40,633 nucleotides of DNA from the NCBI GenBank assembly GCA_019119435.1, contig DWWZ01000028.1:1-40633 (forward strand), read 5' to 3'. The stretch comes from Candidatus Butyricicoccus avicola (GTDB taxonomy: Bacteria; Bacillota; Clostridia; Oscillospirales; Butyricicoccaceae). Shown one piece after another: positions 10,753 to 22,527 of this stretch. How positions within the stretch are numbered: position 1 is the first letter of the stretch; each line of letters begins with the position of its first letter. A program made the position numbers and the translations under genes. The notes below the pieces were generated by a model. The model was not told where the DNA came from, did no database searches, and saw only the letters and a list, made by a program, of their open reading frames with translations.

Positions 10753-11355
10753 CTACAGGGCGAATTCACGGGCACATAGCCGGTCCATCAGGGCTGTGTT
10801 ATGGCTGACGATCACAAGCCCCAGTGCGCGCTCCTGCGCCTGACGCAGCAGGAATTCCCACATCTGCGCCTGGGTGACCAGGTCGAGCATCGCGGTCATC
10901 TCGTCGCACAGCACATAGCGCGTCTGCGGGCGCAGGGCGCGCGCGATACAAAAGCGCTGCAGCTCGCCGCCTGACAGCTCGGCCGGATAGCGCTCGAGCC
11001 AGCCTGGCGCAATGTGCAGCGCGTCGAGCACCCAGTCCTCGACCGGCCCGGCCTCATACAGCGTCTCGCCCAGGCGCAAAAGCGGATCGACTGCGCTCTC
11101 TGGATGCTGCCAGATGAACTGTACTGGGCAGCAGCCCGGATAACTGTCGAGCGGCTTGCCGTCTAGCAGCACCTGGCCGCCGGTCGGCTTCTCGTAACCC
11201 GCCAACAGCTTGCACAGCGTGGTCTTACCGCGCCCGCTTGGCCCGAGCAGGCCTACCCGCTCGCCGCGCTCTACGGTCAAGTCAATCTGATCGAGCACCG
11301 CCGTACGCCGCCGGCCGCGGTAGGAAAAAGACAGGCCAATCGCCTGCAAACTCAT
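10753..11355 (-). CDS. ABC transporter ATP-binding protein (NikE/DppF-like)
   Basis: GPSGRGKTTL Walker A, LSGGELQRFCIARAL signature; start MSLQAIGLSFSYRG, 4-bp overlap with upstream gene. Confidence 0.88.
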   Translation of the reverse strand: MSLQAIGLSFSYRGRRRTAVLDQIDLTVERGERVGLLGPSGRGKTTLCKLLAGYEKPTGGQVLLDGKPLDSYPGCCPVQFIWQHPESAVDPLLRLGETLYEAGPVEDWVLDALHIAPGWLERYPAELSGGELQRFCIARALRPQTRYVLCDEMTAMLDLVTQAQMWEFLLRQAQERALGLVIVSHNTALMDRLCAREFAL

Positions 11356-12290
11356 GTCGTCCAACCTCCTTCCGGGCGCAGGCAGCGCACATAGCCGCCC
11401 TCCGCCGGCCGGTATGGGATGCTCGCCTGGGCGCGGCACGCCGTCCGGCAGTGCCGGCAGCGTGGCGCAAACTGGCATCCCGCCGGGATATCCCCGGGAT
11501 AGGGCTGCGTGCCCGGGATGGGCGTAAACCCGTTCTGCGGCAGGGCCGCCCACAGCGCCTGGGTATAGGGATGGCGCAGGCGGCCGGCCGCAAAGTCCTG
11601 GGCGGCTGCCTCCTCGACGGTCTCCCCGGCGTACAGGACGGCCACCCGGTCGGCAACGGTCAATGCAAGCTCCAGATCGTGCGTGATGAGCAAAATGCCT
11701 GCGCCCGCATCGGCCAGTTCCCGAAAATGCCCCAAGATCCGCGCAGCGGCGCGCGCATCCAGGCCGGGCGTGGGCTCGTCTGCCAGGATGAGCCTGGGCG
11801 TTTCCATGACGGCGGTCGAGATGAGTACCCGCCGCGCCATGCCGCCCGACAGTTCGAACGGATAAAGATTCTCGGTGTCCGCATCCAGGCCGTACCGCGC
11901 AAGAACCTCGCGGCATTTTGCCCGTGCCCGCGCCGTGCGCTGGCCCCGACGCACTTGCGGCCCGACCCGCATGAGTGGGTCCAGATAGGTCACGCCCTGA
12001 GGAACCAGGACCATCTCCCTGCCGCGCAGCGAGGCAGCCCGCTCCGCTGTCAAGGGCATCCCACAAAAGCGCATCTCGCCCTGCATGCAGCTGTTATAGG
12101 GCAGGATATGCAAGATACCGTGGGCAAGCAAACTCTTTCCCGAGCCGCTGGAGCCCACCACCGCAACGATCTGCCCGGCCCCGACCGTGAGCGACAGGTC
12201 GCGGATGACCGGCAGGCTGCGCTGCCGCGTGCCGGCCTCATACTGCCGGAACGCGATCGACAGCCCGCGCACCTCTAAAATCGGCGTCAT
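11352..12290 (-). CDS. ABC transporter ATP-binding protein (NikD/DppD-like)
   Basis: VGSSGSGKSLLAHGIL, ELSGGMARRVLISTAVM, C-terminal oligopeptide/nickel ABC Cys-containing domain. Confidence 0.9.
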   Translation of the reverse strand: MTPILEVRGLSIAFRQYEAGTRQRSLPVIRDLSLTVGAGQIVAVVGSSGSGKSLLAHGILHILPYNSCMQGEMRFCGMPLTAERAASLRGREMVLVPQGVTYLDPLMRVGPQVRRGQRTARARAKCREVLARYGLDADTENLYPFELSGGMARRVLISTAVMETPRLILADEPTPGLDARAAARILGHFRELADAGAGILLITHDLELALTVADRVAVLYAGETVEEAAAQDFAAGRLRHPYTQALWAALPQNGFTPIPGTQPYPGDIPAGCQFAPRCRHCRTACRAQASIPYRPAEGGYVRCLRPEGGWTT

Positions 12291-12314: not shown

Positions 12315-13139
12315 TTATTCATGTACGCTTGCCGGGTCCAGCAAGCTGCGCAGCCGGTCGCCCAGGGCTGCAAAGAGCAACACCACCAGCACAAGCGCCA
12401 GCCCTGGGAACAGCGCCAGCCACCACTTACCGGTCGTCAGATACTGCATGCTCTCGGACAGGATGACGCCGATGGCCGGCTGCTCGGGCGGCAGGCCAAA
12501 CCCCAAAAATGTCACACTGGCCTCGTGCAAAATGGCGTGCGGGAACTGCAAAATCAGCCCGGTCAAGAACTGCGGCAGCAGATGAGGCAGCAAGTGCCGC
12601 CGGATGATGCGCCCGCGGGATACGCCCAGCTTGCGCGCCGTGCGCACATAGGCGGCCTGCCGGAGCTGGATGACCTCGCCCCGGATCACCCGGCTGAGCG
12701 AGGGCCAATGGCTGAGCGAGACGCCGGCGACCACGCCCACAAAGCCCTTCCCAAAGGCCAGGGAGATGAGCATGACGAGCAAGATATGCGGAATGCCCAT
12801 AACGAGGTCGATGCACCAGGAGATGACGGCGTCCACCTTGGGCCCCAGGGTGGCGGCTGCTACACCGAGCAGCAGCGCGATCACCGCGCTGACCACGGCC
12901 GTCAGCGCGCCGATGCGGATACTCAGCGACAGGCCGGCCAGCGTCCGGGCCAGCATATCCCGTCCCATCCAGTCGGTGCCGAAGATAAAATCAGCACATG
13001 GCATCCAATTCTTTCGCGCAAAGTCGGTCTCAAGCGCCCGGTCACCTAGGAACATACCGCTGACCAATACCGCGCACAGCAGGGCGGCGGTCACGGCAAG
13101 CAAAATCCGTGCGCGCAGGCGGCTATTCCAATGCCTCAT
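12315..13139 (-). CDS. ABC transporter permease (NikC/DppC-like)
   Basis: FGTDWMGRDMLARTLAGLSLSIRIG N-terminal motif and binding-protein-dependent permease loop. Confidence 0.9.
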   Translation of the reverse strand: MRHWNSRLRARILLAVTAALLCAVLVSGMFLGDRALETDFARKNWMPCADFIFGTDWMGRDMLARTLAGLSLSIRIGALTAVVSAVIALLLGVAAATLGPKVDAVISWCIDLVMGIPHILLVMLISLAFGKGFVGVVAGVSLSHWPSLSRVIRGEVIQLRQAAYVRTARKLGVSRGRIIRRHLLPHLLPQFLTGLILQFPHAILHEASVTFLGFGLPPEQPAIGVILSESMQYLTTGKWWLALFPGLALVLVVLLFAALGDRLRSLLDPASVHE

Positions 13140-14131
13140 GTGCCTCTCGCCGCCCCTCTCCGAATTTTGGGATCGACAACGCCGTACAGCAGGTCGGCCG
13201 CCAAGTTGCCCGCAAACACGATGGCCGCTGTAATCACCGTGATTCCAAGGAGCAGCGGCAAGTCGCTGCCCAGCCCTGCGGTCACGGCGGCCTGTCCGAG
13301 GCCGGGATAGGAGAATACCTGCTCAACCAGGACCGAGCCGCCAATGATCTCGCTGACCGAGGTAAACTGTAATGTGATTGCCGGGAGCGCTACATTGCGC
13401 AGTCCATGCCGCACGACAAGGGCCAGGCCCGACTCGCCCCGCGCCCGCGCAAACAGCATGTAGTCGGACGTCATGACTTCCACCATCTTTTCGCGCGTGT
13501 GCAGCGCAATGCTCGCCACGCCGGTCATGCTCAAGGTCAGCGCGGGCAGGATGGCGTGCTGGAACCGGTCGGCCAGCGTTACACTGTCCGCCGTAAGCCC
13601 GATGGGTACGGCCAGGCCAATGGGCAGCCAGCCCAGCCAGACCGAAAAGAAAAGAAGCAGCAAGAGCGCCAGCCAAAAGGCCGGCGTGCTGGAGATCAGC
13701 AGGCAATACCCGCGGATGAGCTTATCAGGCAGCCTGCCGCGCAGGGCGCCCGCCGTTACCCCCAGCGCGACGCCGAGCAGCCCGCTCAGCAGCCACGCTG
13801 CGGCCAGCACACCGGCCGAGTTCGCCAGCCGCTGCCCGATTATCTGCAAGACAGGCTGGCGATAGAGCAGAGATGTACCGAAGTCGCCGTGCAGCGCGTC
13901 GGCCAGCCAGCCGAGGTACCGCTCGGCAAGCGGCGTGCCGACGCCCCAATATGCCTCCAGCTTGCCGATCTGCTCCTGGCTCATGGAGCCCAGGGCGGTC
14001 TGGCCTACGTTGGTCTGCAAGGGATCGAGCGGCGAGGCCGACATGAGCAGAAAAGCCGCAAGGCTCACGCCCAAGAGCAAAAGCGCCATCCGGATCAGCT
14101 TTTTCCCCGCAAACTGAAGCCGGTGTTTCAT
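13136..14131 (-). CDS. ABC transporter permease (NikB/DppB-like)
   Basis: DYMLFARARGESGLALVVRHGLRNVALPAITL EAA-type loop. Confidence 0.9.
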   Translation of the reverse strand: MKHRLQFAGKKLIRMALLLLGVSLAAFLLMSASPLDPLQTNVGQTALGSMSQEQIGKLEAYWGVGTPLAERYLGWLADALHGDFGTSLLYRQPVLQIIGQRLANSAGVLAAAWLLSGLLGVALGVTAGALRGRLPDKLIRGYCLLISSTPAFWLALLLLLFFSVWLGWLPIGLAVPIGLTADSVTLADRFQHAILPALTLSMTGVASIALHTREKMVEVMTSDYMLFARARGESGLALVVRHGLRNVALPAITLQFTSVSEIIGGSVLVEQVFSYPGLGQAAVTAGLGSDLPLLLGITVITAAIVFAGNLAADLLYGVVDPKIRRGAARGT

Positions 14132-14151: not shown

Positions 14152-15762
14152 TTACGCCTGCGCCCAGCTCCACTGGTCTACATTGTTGACAATCGACCAG
14201 CCATGGCCATGCGGATGGATCTTCTGTTCAGCGATCTGCAGGCCGTCACGCACCCAATAGAGATGATCGACATTGACCAGCCAGATCCAGGGGATGTCGC
14301 CTTCCTGGGTGACACCGGTCTGCCCGTCCCATTGGGCCTTGCGCCACAGGTCATAGGACGTCTCGAGATCGGTGCTGGCGAGCGCGGCATCCATGTAGGC
14401 ATCCACCGTGGGGTTGGCATAGGGCGAATAGAGGGCCGAGCCGGTGTCCCCATCGGTGTGATAAATGTTATAGAGCTCCATGGGCGTGTGCGCGCCCCAT
14501 CCCCAGATCAGCGGATCGGACAGCGCGCGGTCATAGGCCGTATCCCAGCCCACACCCTCGATCATGGCGTCAATCCCAAGCGCCCCGAGCTGGTTTGCCA
14601 GGTCGGCCGCAAGGGCTTGGCGCACCGAATCATCGCTCGCATAGAGCAGGGTCAGCTCCGCGCGCACGCCGTCCTTCTCCCGGATGCCGTCCGGGCCCAT
14701 AGCCCAGCCAGCCTCGTCCAAGAGCGCCGCGGCTGCCTCTGGATCGTAGGAGACCTCAGCGGCCTTGTTGTACCAGGGCATCTGGTCGCAAATGCTGTAG
14801 GCCGGCGTGCCGTGTCCGTTCAGCACATTGTCGATCATCTCCTGCCGGTCGATGCCGATGTTGATGGCGCGGCGCACCTGCACATCGGCGGTCAGATCAT
14901 TTCCGATCGCCCGGCCCTGTGCATCGGTCCCGGCCGGCACGGCGGGCAGGTTTACGCCTCGGTTATCGACCGACTGGTACGCGGCCAAGCGATAGCCGTC
15001 TATGTCCTCCCCAGAATATGTCGCAGACGTGTAGGCGACGTCCACCTGTCCGGCCTGCGCCGCCAAAAAGGCCGCATCCTCCTCCATAAACAGGATGGTG
15101 ACCTGCTGCATCTTCGGCGCCTCCCCGTAATAATCCGGGTTGGCCTCCAGGATGACCTGCTGCCCCTGATCCCACTGCTTGAGGATGTAGCGTCCCGATC
15201 CGATCGGATTGCGTCCATACGTCTCGCTGTCATAGGCATGTTCGGGCACAATGCCCACGACCGCCATGGTATAGGGCCAGATAGAGAACGGCCGGTTCAT
15301 GTGGAAGGCCACGGTTGTGTCGTCCAGGGCCTCTGCACGGTCCAACATGGTGAAGTCGTTGACCGAGCTTGCCGCCTTGACCGTGTTATAGGTAAAGGCG
15401 ACATCCTGCGCAGTCAGCGGCTGTCCATCGGTGAAGGTGACATCGTCCCGGATGGTGACCGTCCAGGTCAGGCCGTCGTCCGACACCGTGTAACCGGTGG
15501 CAAGGTCATAACCGATGGTCAAGTCGGGATTCGTGACCGTCAAGGTGCTCTGGATCAGCGGCTCGTGCACGTGTTCGCCCGCACCCCAGCCATAGGCCGG
15601 GTCAAATCCGGCGGCCGGCTCGGAGTTCACGTCCATCGCAATCACGACCGAATCGGTCCGGTTGGGCTGGGCCGCCTGTCCGCCGGCCGGCTGCTGCCCG
15701 CCGCAGCCGGCAAGCAGGCAGGCCAGGAGCAGACAGGCAAGCAGGGAACGCAGTCGACTCAT
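14152..15762 (-). CDS. Nickel/peptide-type ABC transporter substrate-binding lipoprotein (NikA-like)
   Basis: Lipobox LLAGC; SBP family 5 pattern (TVTIRDDVTFTDGQPLTAQDVAFTYN; GSGRYILKQW); nickel role inferred from lar context. Confidence 0.83.
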   Translation of the reverse strand: MSRLRSLLACLLLACLLAGCGGQQPAGGQAAQPNRTDSVVIAMDVNSEPAAGFDPAYGWGAGEHVHEPLIQSTLTVTNPDLTIGYDLATGYTVSDDGLTWTVTIRDDVTFTDGQPLTAQDVAFTYNTVKAASSVNDFTMLDRAEALDDTTVAFHMNRPFSIWPYTMAVVGIVPEHAYDSETYGRNPIGSGRYILKQWDQGQQVILEANPDYYGEAPKMQQVTILFMEEDAAFLAAQAGQVDVAYTSATYSGEDIDGYRLAAYQSVDNRGVNLPAVPAGTDAQGRAIGNDLTADVQVRRAINIGIDRQEMIDNVLNGHGTPAYSICDQMPWYNKAAEVSYDPEAAAALLDEAGWAMGPDGIREKDGVRAELTLLYASDDSVRQALAADLANQLGALGIDAMIEGVGWDTAYDRALSDPLIWGWGAHTPMELYNIYHTDGDTGSALYSPYANPTVDAYMDAALASTDLETSYDLWRKAQWDGQTGVTQEGDIPWIWLVNVDHLYWVRDGLQIAEQKIHPHGHGWSIVNNVDQWSWAQA

Positions 15763-17054
15763 GCGTCCGCCTCCCCGTCTGCCGCCTGCTGGGCCGCCTG
15801 CCAGACTGTCTCATAGGATACGCCCTGCGCGCGGGCCAGCGCCGCGACGTCCTCAAATTCGGGTTTTTTGTGGGCCACGCCGAAGCCTTCGGCCGTCTTG
15901 ACACGCACCTGGCCCCAGGGTGTCTGCACGGTCTGGCTGCCCGGCGTGAGGAAATACTTGCCGCAGCGGCGGGCACGCAGGCCGTTGGTCGTGGTCTCGG
16001 CCAGGACATGCTGCGCCATCTCCCCTTCGCGCGCGGCCGCGCACAGCACGGTCAGCACTTGGCCGGGGCGCCCCTTCTTCATGGTGCCGGGCGTCGTATA
16101 GACATCCAGGGCGCCTGCATCCAGCAGCCGCTGGCAGGCGAAGGCCAACGCCTCGGGCGTCATATCATCCAGGTTGCAAACGAGCTCGACGATCTCCCCG
16201 TTGCCTGCCTCTGCGGTCTCGCCCAGGAAAGCGCGCACACAGTTGGCTTGCTCGAATGTTTTGGTCCCGATACCCACGCCGACCGCCTGCACGGTCATGG
16301 CCGGCATCGGGCCAAACGAATCGGCAAAGTGCGCCAAGAGCGCCGCCCCGGTCGGCGTACACAGCTCGCCCTGCACCGCGCCGCCATAGACCGGCACACC
16401 GGCGAGCAGGTTGGCCGTCGCAGGCGCGGGCACAGGCATCACGCCGTGTGCACAGCGCACCGTGCCGCTGCCCACGTGGATGGGCGATACGACAATGCGA
16501 TCCGGGCGCAGAAGCGACAGGGCATAGCACACACCGGTCACATCGGCCACGGCGTCGAGCGCGCCGACCTCATGATAGTGCACGTCTCCCACCGGACAGC
16601 CATGCGCTTTGGCCTCGGCCTGTGCGATTGCGTCATAGACGGCCCGTGCCTGTTCCTTGACCGTTTCGGGCAGCGGCAAGCTACCGATGAGATCGGCAAT
16701 GTGGCCGGGCGTCGCGTGGTGATGATGGTGTACATGCCCGTGATCGTGGTCATGCGCATGCGGGTGCGGATGTTCCTGCCCATGCGCGTGGTCATGTCCG
16801 TGTACGTGTCCCTGGCCGTGGTCATGGCCGGGCGCATCCGGCTCATGCTCCTCCGCGCCGTCCACGGTCACACGCATGTGCGTGCCCGCAATGCCGCAGG
16901 TGGTGGCCGGGCAGGCCTCCAGGCGGACGCCGGGCAGGCCCAGACCGTTCATGGCCGCGACAAAACCATCCTTGTCCTCCAACAGTTCATACAGGGCGGA
17001 CATGAGCATATCGCCCGCCGCACCCATGTTGCATTCAATATACAGTGTTCTCAT
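15759..17054 (-). CDS. larC: Nickel pincer cofactor biosynthesis protein LarC
   Basis: YIECNMGAAGDMLMSALYEL, HYHEVGALDAVADVTG; His/Asp-rich internal stretch; adjacent larB and larE. Confidence 0.93.
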   Translation of the reverse strand: MRTLYIECNMGAAGDMLMSALYELLEDKDGFVAAMNGLGLPGVRLEACPATTCGIAGTHMRVTVDGAEEHEPDAPGHDHGQGHVHGHDHAHGQEHPHPHAHDHDHGHVHHHHHATPGHIADLIGSLPLPETVKEQARAVYDAIAQAEAKAHGCPVGDVHYHEVGALDAVADVTGVCYALSLLRPDRIVVSPIHVGSGTVRCAHGVMPVPAPATANLLAGVPVYGGAVQGELCTPTGAALLAHFADSFGPMPAMTVQAVGVGIGTKTFEQANCVRAFLGETAEAGNGEIVELVCNLDDMTPEALAFACQRLLDAGALDVYTTPGTMKKGRPGQVLTVLCAAAREGEMAQHVLAETTTNGLRARRCGKYFLTPGSQTVQTPWGQVRVKTAEGFGVAHKKPEFEDVAALARAQGVSYETVWQAAQQAADGEADA

Positions 17055-17821
17055 TTGGATGTCTCCTCCAGTCCTTCCATCTGGTTAATACGGCTGGCCA
17101 GATAGCCTGCGCCAAAGCCGTTATCGATATTGACCACGCTGCACCCGGAAGCGCAGGAATTGAGCATGGCCAACAGAGCGGATAGGCCGCCGAAGTTGGC
17201 CCCATATCCCACGCTCGTCGGGACGGCCACCACCGGGCAGTCCACCAGCCCGCCGATGACCGAGGCCAGCGCCCCTTCCATACCTGCCACCGCCACGACG
17301 CACCGCGCGTCCATCAGCTCGTCCAGCTTGGACAGCAGCCGGTGCAGCCCAGCCACGCCCACGTCGTACAGCCGCACAACGCGGTTGCCCATGACCTCCG
17401 CCGTCAATGCGGCCTCCTCGGCGACTGGCATATCACTCGTGCCGCCCGTGGCGACCACGATCTTGCCGCGCGCGGGACGCTCCCCTGGGAAGGCGATGCC
17501 CAACCGGGGCAGCGGATGATAGTCCAGCGGCACGGACGCCGCGACCGTCTCGGCTGCCTGTGCGTCCAACCGGGTGATAAGCACATTTCGGCAGCCGCGC
17601 GCGCCCATGGCCGCGGCGATGCCCGCGATCTGCTCCGGGGTCTTGCCCGCGCCGTAGATCACCTCGGCCGCGCCCTGGCGAATGCTGCGGTGAAAATCCA
17701 CCTTGGCATAGCCGAGATCCTCAAACGGCGACTGCTTGAGCTGCAAGAGCGCCTGTTCCGGCGTAGTTTCTCCCGCGGCCACGCCGCGCAGCAGGTTTAA
17801 AATATCATATTTATTGTCCAT
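17051..17821 (-). CDS. larB: Nickel pincer cofactor biosynthesis protein LarB (pyridinium-3-carboxylate biscarboxylate synthase, AIR-carboxylase-like)
   Basis: GLVDCPVVAVPTSVGYGANFGGLSALLAMLNSCASGCSVVNIDNGFGAGY PurE-like motif; lar context. Confidence 0.94.
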   Translation of the reverse strand: MDNKYDILNLLRGVAAGETTPEQALLQLKQSPFEDLGYAKVDFHRSIRQGAAEVIYGAGKTPEQIAGIAAAMGARGCRNVLITRLDAQAAETVAASVPLDYHPLPRLGIAFPGERPARGKIVVATGGTSDMPVAEEAALTAEVMGNRVVRLYDVGVAGLHRLLSKLDELMDARCVVAVAGMEGALASVIGGLVDCPVVAVPTSVGYGANFGGLSALLAMLNSCASGCSVVNIDNGFGAGYLASRINQMEGLEETSK

Positions 17822-17835
17822 GCCTCGTGCCTCCC

Positions 17836-18591
17836 TCATGTCGATGCCGGACGCGCCCGCAGGTCGAGCAGAACATCCGAAAAATCAGGCTGCAGCGCCT
17901 CCCAGATCGCGCCGCGCAGGGATACCGCGCGCGCCATCTGTTCCTCCGTCAGCTCGAGCCGCGCCGCCTGTCCCAGGATGCGCACGCGGAAATCAGAAAA
18001 TCCCAGCGCGGCCAGCGCGGCTTCCGCCCGCTCGACCTTTTGCAGCAGGCCGGGCACGATGGCCTGGCCGGTCGGAATCCGGGTGGCCAGGCAGGCGTAC
18101 GCAGGTTTATCCCAAGTGAACAGGCCGGCCTCCCGCGACCGGCGGCGCACCGCATCTTTGGTCAAGCCACAGATGCGCAGCGGCGAGCGCACGGCCAGCT
18201 CGCGCAGGGCGCGCATACCCGGCCGGTCGCCCGCGTCATCCGAAGCGTTGGTGCCATCCAGCAGGACGGTATAACCGTCGGCCCGGGCGCGCTGCCACAG
18301 CGCGGAAAACAGCGCTTTTTTGCAGTGGTAGCAGCGATCTGGCCCGTTCTCTGCCGCGCCGGGCACGGCCAGGATATCGACCGGGACCTCGGTCATCGGC
18401 ACGCCGAGCGCATCTGTCAGGCGCTTGGCGTCCTCCCTCTCAAATGCCGGCTGGAACGCCGTGCGGACATAGTAGGCGCGCACGGCACAGCCATAGGCCT
18501 TGGCCGCCCACAGCACGAACGCCGAGTCGGTGCCGCCGGAAAATGCCACAGCCGCCCTGGGGGTCTGCGCAAAAAACTCTTCTAACGTCAT
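17836..18591 (-). CDS. larE: Pyridinium-3,5-biscarboxylate mononucleotide sulfur transferase LarE
   Basis: PP-loop AFSGGTDSAFVL; RCYHCKKALF; PAYACLATRIPTG; lar context. Confidence 0.93.
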   Translation of the reverse strand: MTLEEFFAQTPRAAVAFSGGTDSAFVLWAAKAYGCAVRAYYVRTAFQPAFEREDAKRLTDALGVPMTEVPVDILAVPGAAENGPDRCYHCKKALFSALWQRARADGYTVLLDGTNASDDAGDRPGMRALRELAVRSPLRICGLTKDAVRRRSREAGLFTWDKPAYACLATRIPTGQAIVPGLLQKVERAEAALAALGFSDFRVRILGQAARLELTEEQMARAVSLRGAIWEALQPDFSDVLLDLRARPAST

Positions 18592-18795
18592 CTCATTCCT
18601 CCCACACAAAAAAAAGAAGGCATCCGCTCGTCTGTCAGCAGATACCTTCCTGGTACCAATTGTCGCAAAACAGGCCGCAATGGGCCCAAACAAACTGTGT
18701 CACCGCGCGGGCTGTCTGCATTTCCGGACAAGCGCGGCTTCTGCCGCGTTCCCCGGCTTCCTGCCGGAGATTCCAGGAGGGACATCCCGCGTCTT
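18592..18795 (-). ncRNA. Structured 5' leader of lar-nik operon, candidate riboswitch/attenuator
   Basis: Hairpins CGCGGC-AGAA-GCCGCG (18733-18748) and CUCCGGC-AGGAA-GCCGGGG (18751-18769) upstream of the terminator; competing GGUACC-AGGAA-GGUAUC hairpin (18641-18657). Confidence 0.5.
18608..18649 (-). terminator. Intrinsic terminator inside the larE leader (candidate attenuator)
   Basis: On the minus strand: GAAGGTATCTGCT-GACAGACG-AGCGGATGCCTTC-TTTTTTTT (13-bp stem with two U-G wobbles, 8-nt loop, U8). Confidence 0.85.
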
Positions 18796-18802
18796 CTGTT
18801 TT

Positions 18803-18833
18803 AGTATAACAGTTGGAGTGCACTCCATGTCAA
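18803..18833 (-). promoter_or_regulatory. MerR-type promoter of lar-nik operon
   Basis: Minus strand TTGACA - 19 bp - TATACT, with perfect palindrome TGGAGTGCACTCCA (18814-18827) in the spacer. Confidence 0.75.
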
Positions 18834-18956: not shown

Positions 18957-19036
18957 AGAATCAGATTCTCCAAATTTTGCCAAAATCCGCCACAGGACTG
19001 CCTGTGTGCGTTTGTCCCCGCTTCAGGAGGCCTGTT

Positions 19037-22000
19037 ATGCTGCAAAATCTGTTCAACTATTGGTATGATCTGGAATTTTTCAGTCCCTGCTGGCCGGTCG
19101 ACCCCTCCCGGGACATCGACCTGGCCGGGCATCCCCTGCCCTGGCCGCGCCCGGCCGACCAGGCAGTACGGTACAGTTACGACATCTATCTCGGCAAGGC
19201 CAAGGCCTGCCGCTTGGTATCCAAGCTGATGGACACGCTCGGCATGCGCGCAGAGGACCGCGCCCCAGAATACGACAACGCCCTTGTGTGCCTGTGTGCG
19301 CTTAAAGTGGACCAAGCGGGGCAGTATGTCGCGGGGTCCTTTGGGCTGTCCAGCTTTGCCTGGGCGATCTCCTGCCTCATGGCTGCGCACCGGCTGGATG
19401 CCCGGCTGGACCCGTCTGCACTGGAAAAGCTGCAAGCCCGCACAGACGAACAGCTCTGCGAGGCCTATGCCCTGCCCGGCAAGCCGCCTTTTTGCAAGGC
19501 TGACCTGATCCGGCTGTACCGCACCCTGCTCCGGCAGTTGGGCTTTGCGCCGGAAGTGTTTTTCGAGGCGCTCTGGGCGCGCCCCAAAAAGCAGCACGCC
19601 AATAAAGACGGCTCCTTCCCGCCGCTCGACCCGTCGACCGAACTCGTCCAGAGCTTTTACCTGCGCGACCTGGCCCGCATCCGGCAGGCGCCCGGCCCGC
19701 TGGTCGAGCAGTATGCCCTAGCCCTGCAATCGCCCTGTCCTACCCGTATCCAGATCGATTGTGACGTCCAACAAATGCAGCGCTGGCTGGATGCCGCCGC
19801 CTTCCCCCTCGGGTTGTGGCCAGCGGCACACAACCCCTGCCTGATGCAGCAGCCCGCCGTCAACCTCGCCATCGCTCCAGATGCGCCGCCGCTGTTTTCG
19901 GTCAATGGCCCGCCCGGCACCGGGAAGACCACGCTGCTCAAGGAGATCGTGGCTTCAAACGTCGTGCAGCGCGCCATACACATGGCCTCCTATGACAAGC
20001 CGGACGATGCATTCACCGCCGAGAAATTCCAGACACCGCCCGACCCTTATACCCAGAATTTTTACCGGCCCGACCCTGCGCTCACGGCCTATGGCATCCT
20101 GGTTGCCTCCAACAACAACGCGGCGGTCGAAAACATCTCGGTCGGCCTGCCCGAATCCATCTCCAAGGATCGCACCGGGCGTTTTTCCGGTGCCGATGCC
20201 GCAAACCCAGGCCCGACCTATTTTGCCGATCTGGCTTCAGCCCTGCTCGGCAAGCCCGCCTGGGGCCTCATCTCCGCCCGGCTGGGCAAGCGCAAAAATA
20301 TTGCCGATCTGCGGGAGCGGCTGTGGTGGGCTGGGGACGGCTTGACCCTCAAGGCCTACTACGAGCAAGAACTGCCCGACTGGCAGGCCGCCCGGCAGGC
20401 GTTCCGATCTGCACTGGACGCCGTGCAGCAGGCTCGGCAGGGCCTGGTCCAGGCGCAAGCTGACCTGCGCGCACAGCGGGACGCCGTGCACCGGCAGGCT
20501 GCCGCCCGGGCCGCCCTACAGCAGGCGCAGGACGCACAGGCTGCCGCACAGCGCGCATGGGAGGCCGGTAATCAGGCCCAGCAATCGCTCAAGCGCACAC
20601 TGGCCGCGCAGAACGGGGCCGCCGCACTGCTCAAAAACCAGCTTTCGTTCATAAAGCGCACCTTCCCCAAAAAATTTGCCAAGGATCCCCTGGTCGCAGG
20701 CTGGCTGGAAGCCCAGCAGACGGCCGACCAGACCGCGCTGCAGCTCAAAGACTGCGCGCGTACCCTGCCCGCGCTCGAACAAGCCCTCGCGCAGGCACGC
20801 GCGCGCACAGACCAGGCCGCGCAAGAGCGGGCGCAGGCTGACACGGCACGGGCGCAGGCTGGCCGCGCGCTGGCGGTCCACCGCGAAACCCTGGGTTCCC
20901 AGCTCCCCGGCCCTGCATTTTGGCAGGACATCACGTCCAACCAGGAGGCCCAGACGGCCTGTCCCTGGACTTATGCCGCATACGACCGCCTGCGGGAGGA
21001 ACTATTCTATCAGGCGCTCATGCTGCACAAGGCTTTCGTCCTGTCCAGCAACCGGGTCAAGCAGAACCTGATGCGGCTCTTTGCCCTCTGGGGCGGCAGG
21101 CTGGAACCCACTGACCGCAAGGCGGCTTATGGTGACCTGCTCAACACCCTCCTGCTCATTATCCCGGTTCTGTCCACCACCTTCGCCTCGGTGCAGACAT
21201 TCCTGGAAGATGTGCCGCCGGGTGCCCTCGGCCTTGTCATCATCGATGAGGCAGGACAGGCCACACCTCAGAGCGCGCTGGGCGCGCTCTGGCGCACCCG
21301 ACGCGCCGTCATCGTGGGCGACCCGCTCCAGGTTGAGCCCATCGTCACCGTCCCCAAGGAACTCATCCGCCGCTTTGCCGCCGAACATGCCATCCCGCCC
21401 GCCTATCAGCAGGCCGAGCTGTCGGTGCAGATCCTGGCCGACCAGTGCAACCCCTTTGGCGGCCTGCGGCAGATCGGTGGGGAACCGGTATGGCTCGGCT
21501 GCCCGCTGGTCGTACACCGGCGCTGTATGGATCCCATGTTCCGCATCGCCAATCAGGTTGCCTACAATGGCCGTATGTTCTCAAAAACGGTGCCACCAGC
21601 CCCCGCGCGCGCCTTCCTGCTGCCGCGCTCGGTCTGGTTCGATATCCGGGGCGCCGAGCACGGCGACCGCAATCACACAGTAGACGCCCAGATTCAGGCT
21701 GCCGCGCAGCTTTTCGTGCGCGCACTCGCCGTATACCACGGCCTGCCTGACCTGTACCTCATCACCCCCTTCACCTCGGTTGAGCAGTCACTGCGCGAGA
21801 CGCTGGACGCGCTGCTGCAAGCCCATCTGCCCGCGATGTCCCGCCGCGATATCAGCGGCTGGCTGGACACCCATTGCGGTACCATCCATACCTTCCAGGG
21901 CCGGGAGGCCAGTGAGGTGCTTCTGATCCTGGGCTGCGACGCAAACAGCGGCAAAAGCGCAGCCCTTTGGGTGGGGCAAAAGCCCAATATGATCAATGTC

Positions 22001-22129
22001 GCCGTTTCCCGCGCAAAATACCGCCTGGGTGTGATCGGCGACCTCGACCTATGGCGCCATGTCCCCTATGTGCAGACCGTATGCCGTACGCTGCCCGCAC
22101 AGGGACAAATCTTTGACGCCGTGGATTGA
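19037..22129 (+). CDS. SF1 (UPF1/DNA2-like) AAA helicase with internal coiled coil
   Basis: NGPPGTGKTTLLKEI Walker A; LVIIDEAGQATPQSAL motif II; TFQGREASEVLLI and INVAVSRAKYRLGVIGD motifs V/VI; start at ATG 19037 preceded by AGGAGG. Confidence 0.88.
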   Translation: MLQNLFNYWYDLEFFSPCWPVDPSRDIDLAGHPLPWPRPADQAVRYSYDIYLGKAKACRLVSKLMDTLGMRAEDRAPEYDNALVCLCALKVDQAGQYVAGSFGLSSFAWAISCLMAAHRLDARLDPSALEKLQARTDEQLCEAYALPGKPPFCKADLIRLYRTLLRQLGFAPEVFFEALWARPKKQHANKDGSFPPLDPSTELVQSFYLRDLARIRQAPGPLVEQYALALQSPCPTRIQIDCDVQQMQRWLDAAAFPLGLWPAAHNPCLMQQPAVNLAIAPDAPPLFSVNGPPGTGKTTLLKEIVASNVVQRAIHMASYDKPDDAFTAEKFQTPPDPYTQNFYRPDPALTAYGILVASNNNAAVENISVGLPESISKDRTGRFSGADAANPGPTYFADLASALLGKPAWGLISARLGKRKNIADLRERLWWAGDGLTLKAYYEQELPDWQAARQAFRSALDAVQQARQGLVQAQADLRAQRDAVHRQAAARAALQQAQDAQAAAQRAWEAGNQAQQSLKRTLAAQNGAAALLKNQLSFIKRTFPKKFAKDPLVAGWLEAQQTADQTALQLKDCARTLPALEQALAQARARTDQAAQERAQADTARAQAGRALAVHRETLGSQLPGPAFWQDITSNQEAQTACPWTYAAYDRLREELFYQALMLHKAFVLSSNRVKQNLMRLFALWGGRLEPTDRKAAYGDLLNTLLLIIPVLSTTFASVQTFLEDVPPGALGLVIIDEAGQATPQSALGALWRTRRAVIVGDPLQVEPIVTVPKELIRRFAAEHAIPPAYQQAELSVQILADQCNPFGGLRQIGGEPVWLGCPLVVHRRCMDPMFRIANQVAYNGRMFSKTVPPAPARAFLLPRSVWFDIRGAEHGDRNHTVDAQIQAAAQLFVRALAVYHGLPDLYLITPFTSVEQSLRETLDALLQAHLPAMSRRDISGWLDTHCGTIHTFQGREASEVLLILGCDANSGKSAALWVGQKPNMINVAVSRAKYRLGVIGDLDLWRHVPYVQTVCRTLPAQGQIFDAVD

Positions 22130-22203
22130 CGCCGTTCCCACACCGATGTTATGATACCCTTGTTGTATGTCTTATCGCCCCCGATAGAAAGGATGTTTTT
22201 CCC

Positions 22204-22527
22204 ATGGGCATGTTTATGCAAACCTTTCACACCATCACCCCCGAGGATGCAAAGAAGCTGATGGACGAGAAGCCCGTGACGATCTTGGATGTGCGCGAGC
22301 CGTCAGAGTTCGCCTCCGGCCATATCCCCGGCGCGCGCAACCTGCCGGTCGGTTCGGTCCGGCGGGAGGCTGCGCAGGCCCTGCCCGACTTAGATGCTAC
22401 CATCCTGGTCTACTGCCTGACCGGCGCGCGTTCCGCAACCGCCTGCTCGATCCTGACCGAGCTTGGCTATACCGCCGTATACGACTTCGGCGGCATCGCA
22501 CTCTGGCCTTATGAGATCGAGGACTGA
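22204..22527 (+). CDS. Rhodanese-like domain protein
   Basis: ILDVREPSEFASGHIPGARNLPVG; active-site loop YCLTGARS. Confidence 0.9.
   Translation: MGMFMQTFHTITPEDAKKLMDEKPVTILDVREPSEFASGHIPGARNLPVGSVRREAAQALPDLDATILVYCLTGARSATACSILTELGYTAVYDFGGIALWPYEIED

Follow-up and report, generated by a model that had tools for sequence, protein, structure and literature searches.

A leader element of tandem GAA-loop hairpins with alternative antiterminator and terminator stems upstream of larE, and its association with DUF3842

The larE operon and its leader

The window analysed here is a stretch of 40,633 nucleotides from Candidatus Butyricicoccus avicola. Its minus strand carries a larE-larB-larC operon that continues into genes for a substrate-binding protein, two permeases and an ABC ATPase (Table 1). 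Divergent from this operon, at 18977-22129 on the plus strand, is a gene encoding an AAA_11/AAA_12 SF1-helicase-like protein of at most 1050 amino acids, and the next gene after it (22126-22527) encodes a rhodanese-domain protein.

The promoter that can be read in front of larE has its two hexamers separated by a 19-nt spacer, and transcription of the operon is expected to start near 18796. A 19-nt spacer together with a perfect palindrome is typical for MerR-family activators, and the palindrome within the spacer, GGAGTGCACTCC, may be an operator of the MerR-family type that provides a second layer of control at the DNA level. The same promoter design is found 5' of larE in the locus L033 and in genome G026 (L005). 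G026 possesses larE, DUF3842 is absent from it and the RNA element described below was not detected there. Since this operator type occurs both in the window and in a genome with neither DUF3842 nor a detected element, two layers may act on lar, and in the window's genome lar may be under the control of a MerR-type operator as well as an RNA switch.

Two hairpins that have GAA loops, H1 and H2, come first in the leader and together form dual 1. They are followed by H3, a perfect 6-bp stem closed by a 5-nt loop, whose 3' arm doubles as the 5' arm of an intrinsic terminator. The inner hairpin of the terminator, H4, has a C(AGAA)G loop in most relatives that has diverged to CAGACG in the window. 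The U8 of the terminator ends 16 nt 5' of the larE ATG (18591). A consensus scan of 15 kb found 16 terminators where 10 were expected, and that of the larE leader ranked first among them. Folding of the 192-nt leader gives -86 kcal/mol compared with -67.1 +/- 4.6 for shuffled sequences (z -4.1), and that of the terminator alone -23.0 kcal/mol (z -6.7); with the terminator removed, the leader shows no unusual stability (z -1.1). As single hairpins, H3, H1 and H2 have energies of -6.7, -9.7 and -10.8 kcal/mol, respectively, and when the entire leader is folded to minimum energy, an alternative pairing takes the place of H1. It is conservation, not folding energy, that marks the leader as real.

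Table 1. Features of the larE operon, its promoter and its leader in the window
Feature	Position	Strand	Basis or remark
-35 hexamer TTGACA	18828-18833	-	read from sequence; 19-nt spacer to TATACT
Palindrome GGAGTGCACTCC	18815-18826	-	perfect; within the promoter spacer
-10 hexamer TATACT	18803-18808	-	read from sequence
65-codon ORF across the leader, ATGA overlap with larE	18588-18785	-	present; judged not functional, since ORFs of other leaders differ
H1, tctCCGGC-AGGAA-GCCGGgga, GAA-loop hairpin, first of dual 1, 5-nt loop AGGAA	18750-18770	-	sequence and R1 match
H2, CGCGGC-AGAA-GCCGCG, GAA-loop hairpin, second of dual 1, 4-nt loop AGAA	18733-18748	-	sequence and R1 match
H3, antiterminator hairpin GGUACC-AGGAA-GGUAUC	18641-18657	-	sequence, covariation and R2 match
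Intrinsic terminator, stem of about 13 bp then U8 (18608-18615)	18608-18650	-	consensus scan, covariation and folding
larE, first regulated gene	17836-18591	-	TIGR00268, 234.7 bits (cut-off 150)
larB (AIR-carboxylase family)	17051-17839	-	PF00731
larC (nickel insertion)	15759-17054	-	PF01969
SBP_5 substrate-binding protein	14152-15762	-	best NCBIfam match NikA, below its cut-off
Two transport permeases, Nik/Opp type	13136-14131 and 12315-13139	-	profile matches
ABC ATPase	10753-12066	-	best NCBIfam matches NikE-type, below cut-off

Conservation of the hairpins and of the alternative stems

Relatives of larE were taken from the same family and from genome contigs. Their leaders contain a C(ANGAA)G hairpin and, after 12-16 nt, a C(NGAA)G hairpin, both with free stem sequence, and a second C(ANGAA)G hairpin lies directly 5' of larE with its 3' arm opening the terminator. 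The dual, a 5-nt loop and then a 4-nt loop, is usually present twice per leader, and the number and spacing of duals differ among leaders. At least two GAA-loop hairpins are found in 28 of the 60 larE leaders, compared with none or one of 60 in each of 20 dinucleotide shuffles. Two covariance models were built, R1 of the upstream dual and R2 of the half containing H3 and the terminator. In the window's genome only the larE leader matches R1 significantly (18768-18733, E 6.5e-8; next best 0.085), and the sole R2 match is at 18658-18608 (E 1.7e-8). In three other genomes (G025, G045 and G046) R1 has two matches in the larE leader, one to each dual.

The two competing stems were compared in an alignment (A3) of 32 H3-terminator segments from relatives. 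Pairing is seen in 92.4% of the cells of the antiterminator stem H3 (25 double-change cells) and in 95.1% of those of the terminator stem (66 double-change cells); these percentages are upper bounds because the sequences were gathered with a hairpin finder, which selects on pairing. When the alignment is slid, pairing drops to 32-56%. At column 16 of A3 a change from U to C is accompanied by changes from A to G at columns 6 and 53. Thus, the shared arm covaries with both of its partners, a pattern that marks alternative structures. The larE leaders L053, L055 and L057 retain GAA-loop hairpins and have a terminator that is built differently (CCGGGTTTGTTTCCTTTT); this group is a probable variant architecture that R2 misses.

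An earlier note on this DNA had pointed to the two strong 5' hairpins without interpreting them, and these are now seen to be present, conserved and part of a GAA-loop recognition array. It had also described a terminator about 16 nt before the larE ATG with no minus-strand gene between it and the promoter, as is read in the sequence, and had proposed GGUACC-AGGAA-GGUAUC as a competitor, which the shared arm and the covariation bear out. The question that it posed, whether structure is kept upstream of larE in relatives, can be answered in the affirmative.

Genes behind the element and the association with DUF3842

Genomes were scanned with R1 at the level of the order and class and with R2 over the DUF3842 sets and the phylum; order-level R1 matches with E values of about 1e-3 or worse, often inside unrelated ORFs, were discarded as background. 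Full elements are found 5' of larE, the larB operon, larC, the nickel-type or metal-chelate transporters SBP_5, CbiM (PF01891) and FecCD, and an ECF S component (PF12822) of the kind found in vitamin transporters. The ECF S component, which carries a PMHxPVLLCG motif, is the commonest target: it accounts for 17 of the 31 R2 matches whose loci were examined in the genome sets with and without DUF3842, followed by larE (7), the larB operon (2), FecCD (2), CbiM (1) and SBP_5 (1), with one match (L332) unplaced. The targets other than this orphan ECF S component are genes for nickel or the nickel-pincer nucleotide (NPN) or for metal uptake. Cobalt or corrinoids are handled by CbiM and FecCD, too, in other bacteria. 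Nickel is therefore the best common denominator of the regulon and not a proven one. The control of the lar-nik operon that had been proposed earlier holds insofar as the element is tied largely to nickel and lar genes; the regulon itself extends well past lar.

In seven loci (L201, L204, L205, L207, L229, L340 and L357) genes for two small proteins of no known class lie between the element and larB (sequences MACFLVPAAEAVITT... and MTLLTTVFAAVICT..., MACFLVPAAEA... and MTLLTTVFAA...); the pair has no match in Pfam or NCBIfam and is possibly a nickel-uptake or storage pair. In five others (L326, L344, L353, L361 and L362) the ECF S gene precedes one for a protein of about 310-320 amino acids with a conserved N-terminal YPxM...LxYQxEFGxGHM, which has a weak P-loop kinase match and no Pfam family. 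A class I SAM methyltransferase gene lies downstream of the element, 3' of the FecCD operon in L197 and of the ECF S component in L338. The phylum-wide R2 scan gave weak matches (E 1e-4 to 1e-2), several of which precede the same kinds of genes, suggesting that the range of the element may exceed Clostridia. One weak match in another class of the phylum (L358) lies 5' of a gene of the FmdE family (PF02663) that has a dksA/traR zinc finger.

The gene encoding DUF3842 (PF12953) often lies immediately 5' of the element in the same orientation, with a promoter in between, while the target gene varies, an arrangement that resembles that of an antiterminator gene preceding its target. Of 90 duf3842 genes, 17 have a composite of GAA-loop hairpin and terminator within 600 nt on their 3' side, and between two and four of these cases look spurious. 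None of the 90 had one in any of five shuffles, and two sets of control windows yielded one composite in 90 and one in 55. R2 matched in 30 of 80 genomes with DUF3842 and in 1 of 80 without it (p 6e-10) or, with the eight training genomes left out, in 22 of 72 and 1 of 80 (p 1e-7), and hairpin arrays are present in the larE leaders of 27 of 47 genomes with DUF3842 and 1 of 13 without it (p 0.0013); all three p-values are too small because the genomes are related. LarC is encoded in 45 of the 80 genomes without DUF3842. At the level of the order, DUF3842 is present in all 16 sampled genomes with a clear R1 match, compared with 134 of 394 overall. Four of the 16 (G023, G298, G300 and G085) lack larC, and DUF3842 thus accompanies the element in the absence of lar as well. 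The exceptions, genomes with an element and no detected DUF3842, are G166 (L356) and the genome of L051 (G830), and many genomes with DUF3842 have no R2 match. The window's genome has one copy of duf3842, on another contig (G000:C25:2510-2893). A regulator was sought within the lar operon, where only lar and transporter genes recur in addition to duf3842 upstream in six loci, and lar neighbourhoods have no conserved regulator besides DUF3842.

The structure of DUF3842, modelled with 13 sequences, is predicted to be a Rossmann-like alpha/beta domain (pLDDT 88.5). A Foldseek comparison with the PDB returned generic Rossmann-type proteins only (UbiX-like and NAD-binding) at low TM scores, the best being UbiX-like with a TM score of about 0.5, and a sequence search of solved structures gave no match. 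Invariant or nearly invariant residues comprise a GGG loop after strand 1, N36, M43, TGEN, E83 and C107, and on the model these are compatible with binding of a nucleotide such as NPN and of a metal via the cysteine. The predicted fold is not among the known RNA-binding folds. The literature searched contains no paper on DUF3842.

A candidate antitermination switch and its alternatives

The element combines a conserved antiterminator and an intrinsic terminator that, by virtue of their common arm, are mutually exclusive, which is one general mark of a transcription attenuator or antiterminator. The earlier note had regarded the leader as a candidate riboswitch or attenuator of an unrecognised class. 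A search of Rfam 15 (T-box, NiCo and cobalamin included) gave no match in the leader at gathering score and only a tRNA elsewhere; relaxed to E 10, the best leader matches were EBER1 (E 8.7) and Chlorobi-1 (E 7.7), none of them relevant. The leader is thus like NiCo (czcD) and other metal or cofactor riboswitches of Rfam in being a leader RNA before metal-related genes and differs in matching none of them.

In the BglG/SacY/LicT systems the RAT antiterminator, a hairpin, and the terminator overlap, and the regulator is often encoded ahead of its target; the RAT is a single hairpin of about 30 nt with internal loops that is bound by the CAT domain and is PTS controlled. H3 has a perfect stem, there are no sugar genes, and the element is not of this type. 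In ANTAR antitermination (EutV, NasR and AmiR) two small hairpins are present, the second overlapping the terminator, and their sites have 3-bp stems and hexanucleotide loops with A at position 1 and G at position 4 (Ramesh et al. 2012, PMC3369931). Binding of the protein favours the antiterminator, and several transcription units are controlled in trans (PMC3369931). The larE element likewise consists of tandem hairpins overlapping a terminator, here usually as two duals. However, its AGGAA and AGAA loops do not fit the ANTAR definition, the loops of the element having 5 nt (ANGAA) and 4 nt (NGAA), and its candidate protein, DUF3842, is not an ANTAR protein. This raises the possibility of an ANTAR-like logic that uses a different RNA motif and a wholly new regulator family.

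The explanation that appears reasonably probable from these sequence comparisons is transcription antitermination with DUF3842 as the likely binder of the GAA loops and a shortage of nickel or NPN as the probable signal. The nascent RNA would fold as tandem GAA-loop hairpins, dual 1 (H1 and H2) and dual 2 (H3 and H4), and dual 1 would be the loading site for a factor that recognises tandem GAA loops. The large difference in stability between H3 and the terminator implies that the RNA by itself would terminate by default and that something must hold H3 (and H4) for the brief time that transcription allows. This would be a trans-acting protein, most likely DUF3842, whose binding to the GAA loops under scarcity of nickel or NPN keeps these hairpins in place so that polymerase reads into larE-larB-larC and the transporter genes; without bound protein the far more stable terminator would form. 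Read-through under scarcity is the likely sign of the response because uptake genes are part of the regulon. DUF3842 is probably the regulator of the element, although a DUF3842 that is a nickel/NPN enzyme or chaperone could produce the co-occurrence too.

An alternative is a direct riboswitch, which would make DUF3842 a functional partner only. Here the tandem hairpins would contact one another and take up Ni2+, NPN or some other ligand with no protein involved, the ligand choosing between H3 and the terminator. The conserved loops, their regular spacing of 12-16 nt, the usual order of a 5-nt and then a 4-nt loop and the nickel/NPN-centred regulon speak for it, and a precedent exists in the guanidine-II riboswitch (mini-ykkC), in which tandem small hairpins with near-identical conserved ACGR loops bind guanidinium (PMC9300104). 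The element is not itself a guanidine-II riboswitch: its loops are (A)NGAA, Rfam gave no match, and guanidine-exporter genes and a proposed translational mechanism are replaced here by nickel-type genes and a terminator. Small GAA loops on freely varying stems have no obvious binding pocket, the duals differ among leaders in number and spacing, as protein sites do, and the linkage to DUF3842 is strong in genomes without larC too. A direct metabolite riboswitch therefore seems less likely, the genomic pattern favouring a protein partner in DUF3842; of the earlier proposal the attenuator is the part that stands. Binding of the hairpins by some other protein in trans, such as an ANTAR- or NusG-like factor that escaped recognition, with DUF3842 being a co-regulated nickel protein, is an improbable reading: ANTAR antitermination on tandem hairpins is established (PMC3369931), but DUF3842 is the only conserved candidate near lar and its presence separates element-positive from element-negative genomes.

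The 65-codon ORF had been put forward as a basis for leader-peptide attenuation or translational coupling, given its ATGA overlap with larE. ORFs of at least 30 codons that end at larE are common by chance (14 of 25 leaders), the peptides from different leaders share neither sequence nor length, and the conserved parts of the leader are the hairpin loops and the two alternative stems, so this proposal, its ORF not being conserved, is very doubtful. Intrinsic terminators are common, as the excess in the 15-kb scan illustrates, and this one might be an ordinary constitutive terminator or the hairpins might be due to chance, with no regulation at all; the conservation of competing stems, loops and gene set leaves next to no room for that.

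A bolder form of the antitermination model can be entertained tentatively. DUF3842 might be the founder of a new family of antiterminators that bind RNA sequence-specifically; it would be a Rossmann-like sensor that binds NPN (or nickel) and runs a nickel/NPN regulon via GAA-loop hairpins. The regulated ECF S component, which in several genomes adjoins the P-loop kinase-like gene and also occurs where larC is lacking, might import nickel or salvage an NPN precursor. The literature searched contains no account of RNA-level control of nickel-pincer cofactor genes, and nothing relevant was found on a larE riboswitch, nickel regulons or candidate structured RNAs in microbiomes. The regulon spans many gut Clostridia and probably other Bacillota, and it offers a first testable function for DUF3842, a family present in a third of the 394 genomes of the order, as well as a predicted role for the orphan ECF S component behind more than half (17/31) of the R2 matches. 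If DUF3842 binds the hairpins, it would add one more protein family to the few dedicated bacterial antiterminators.
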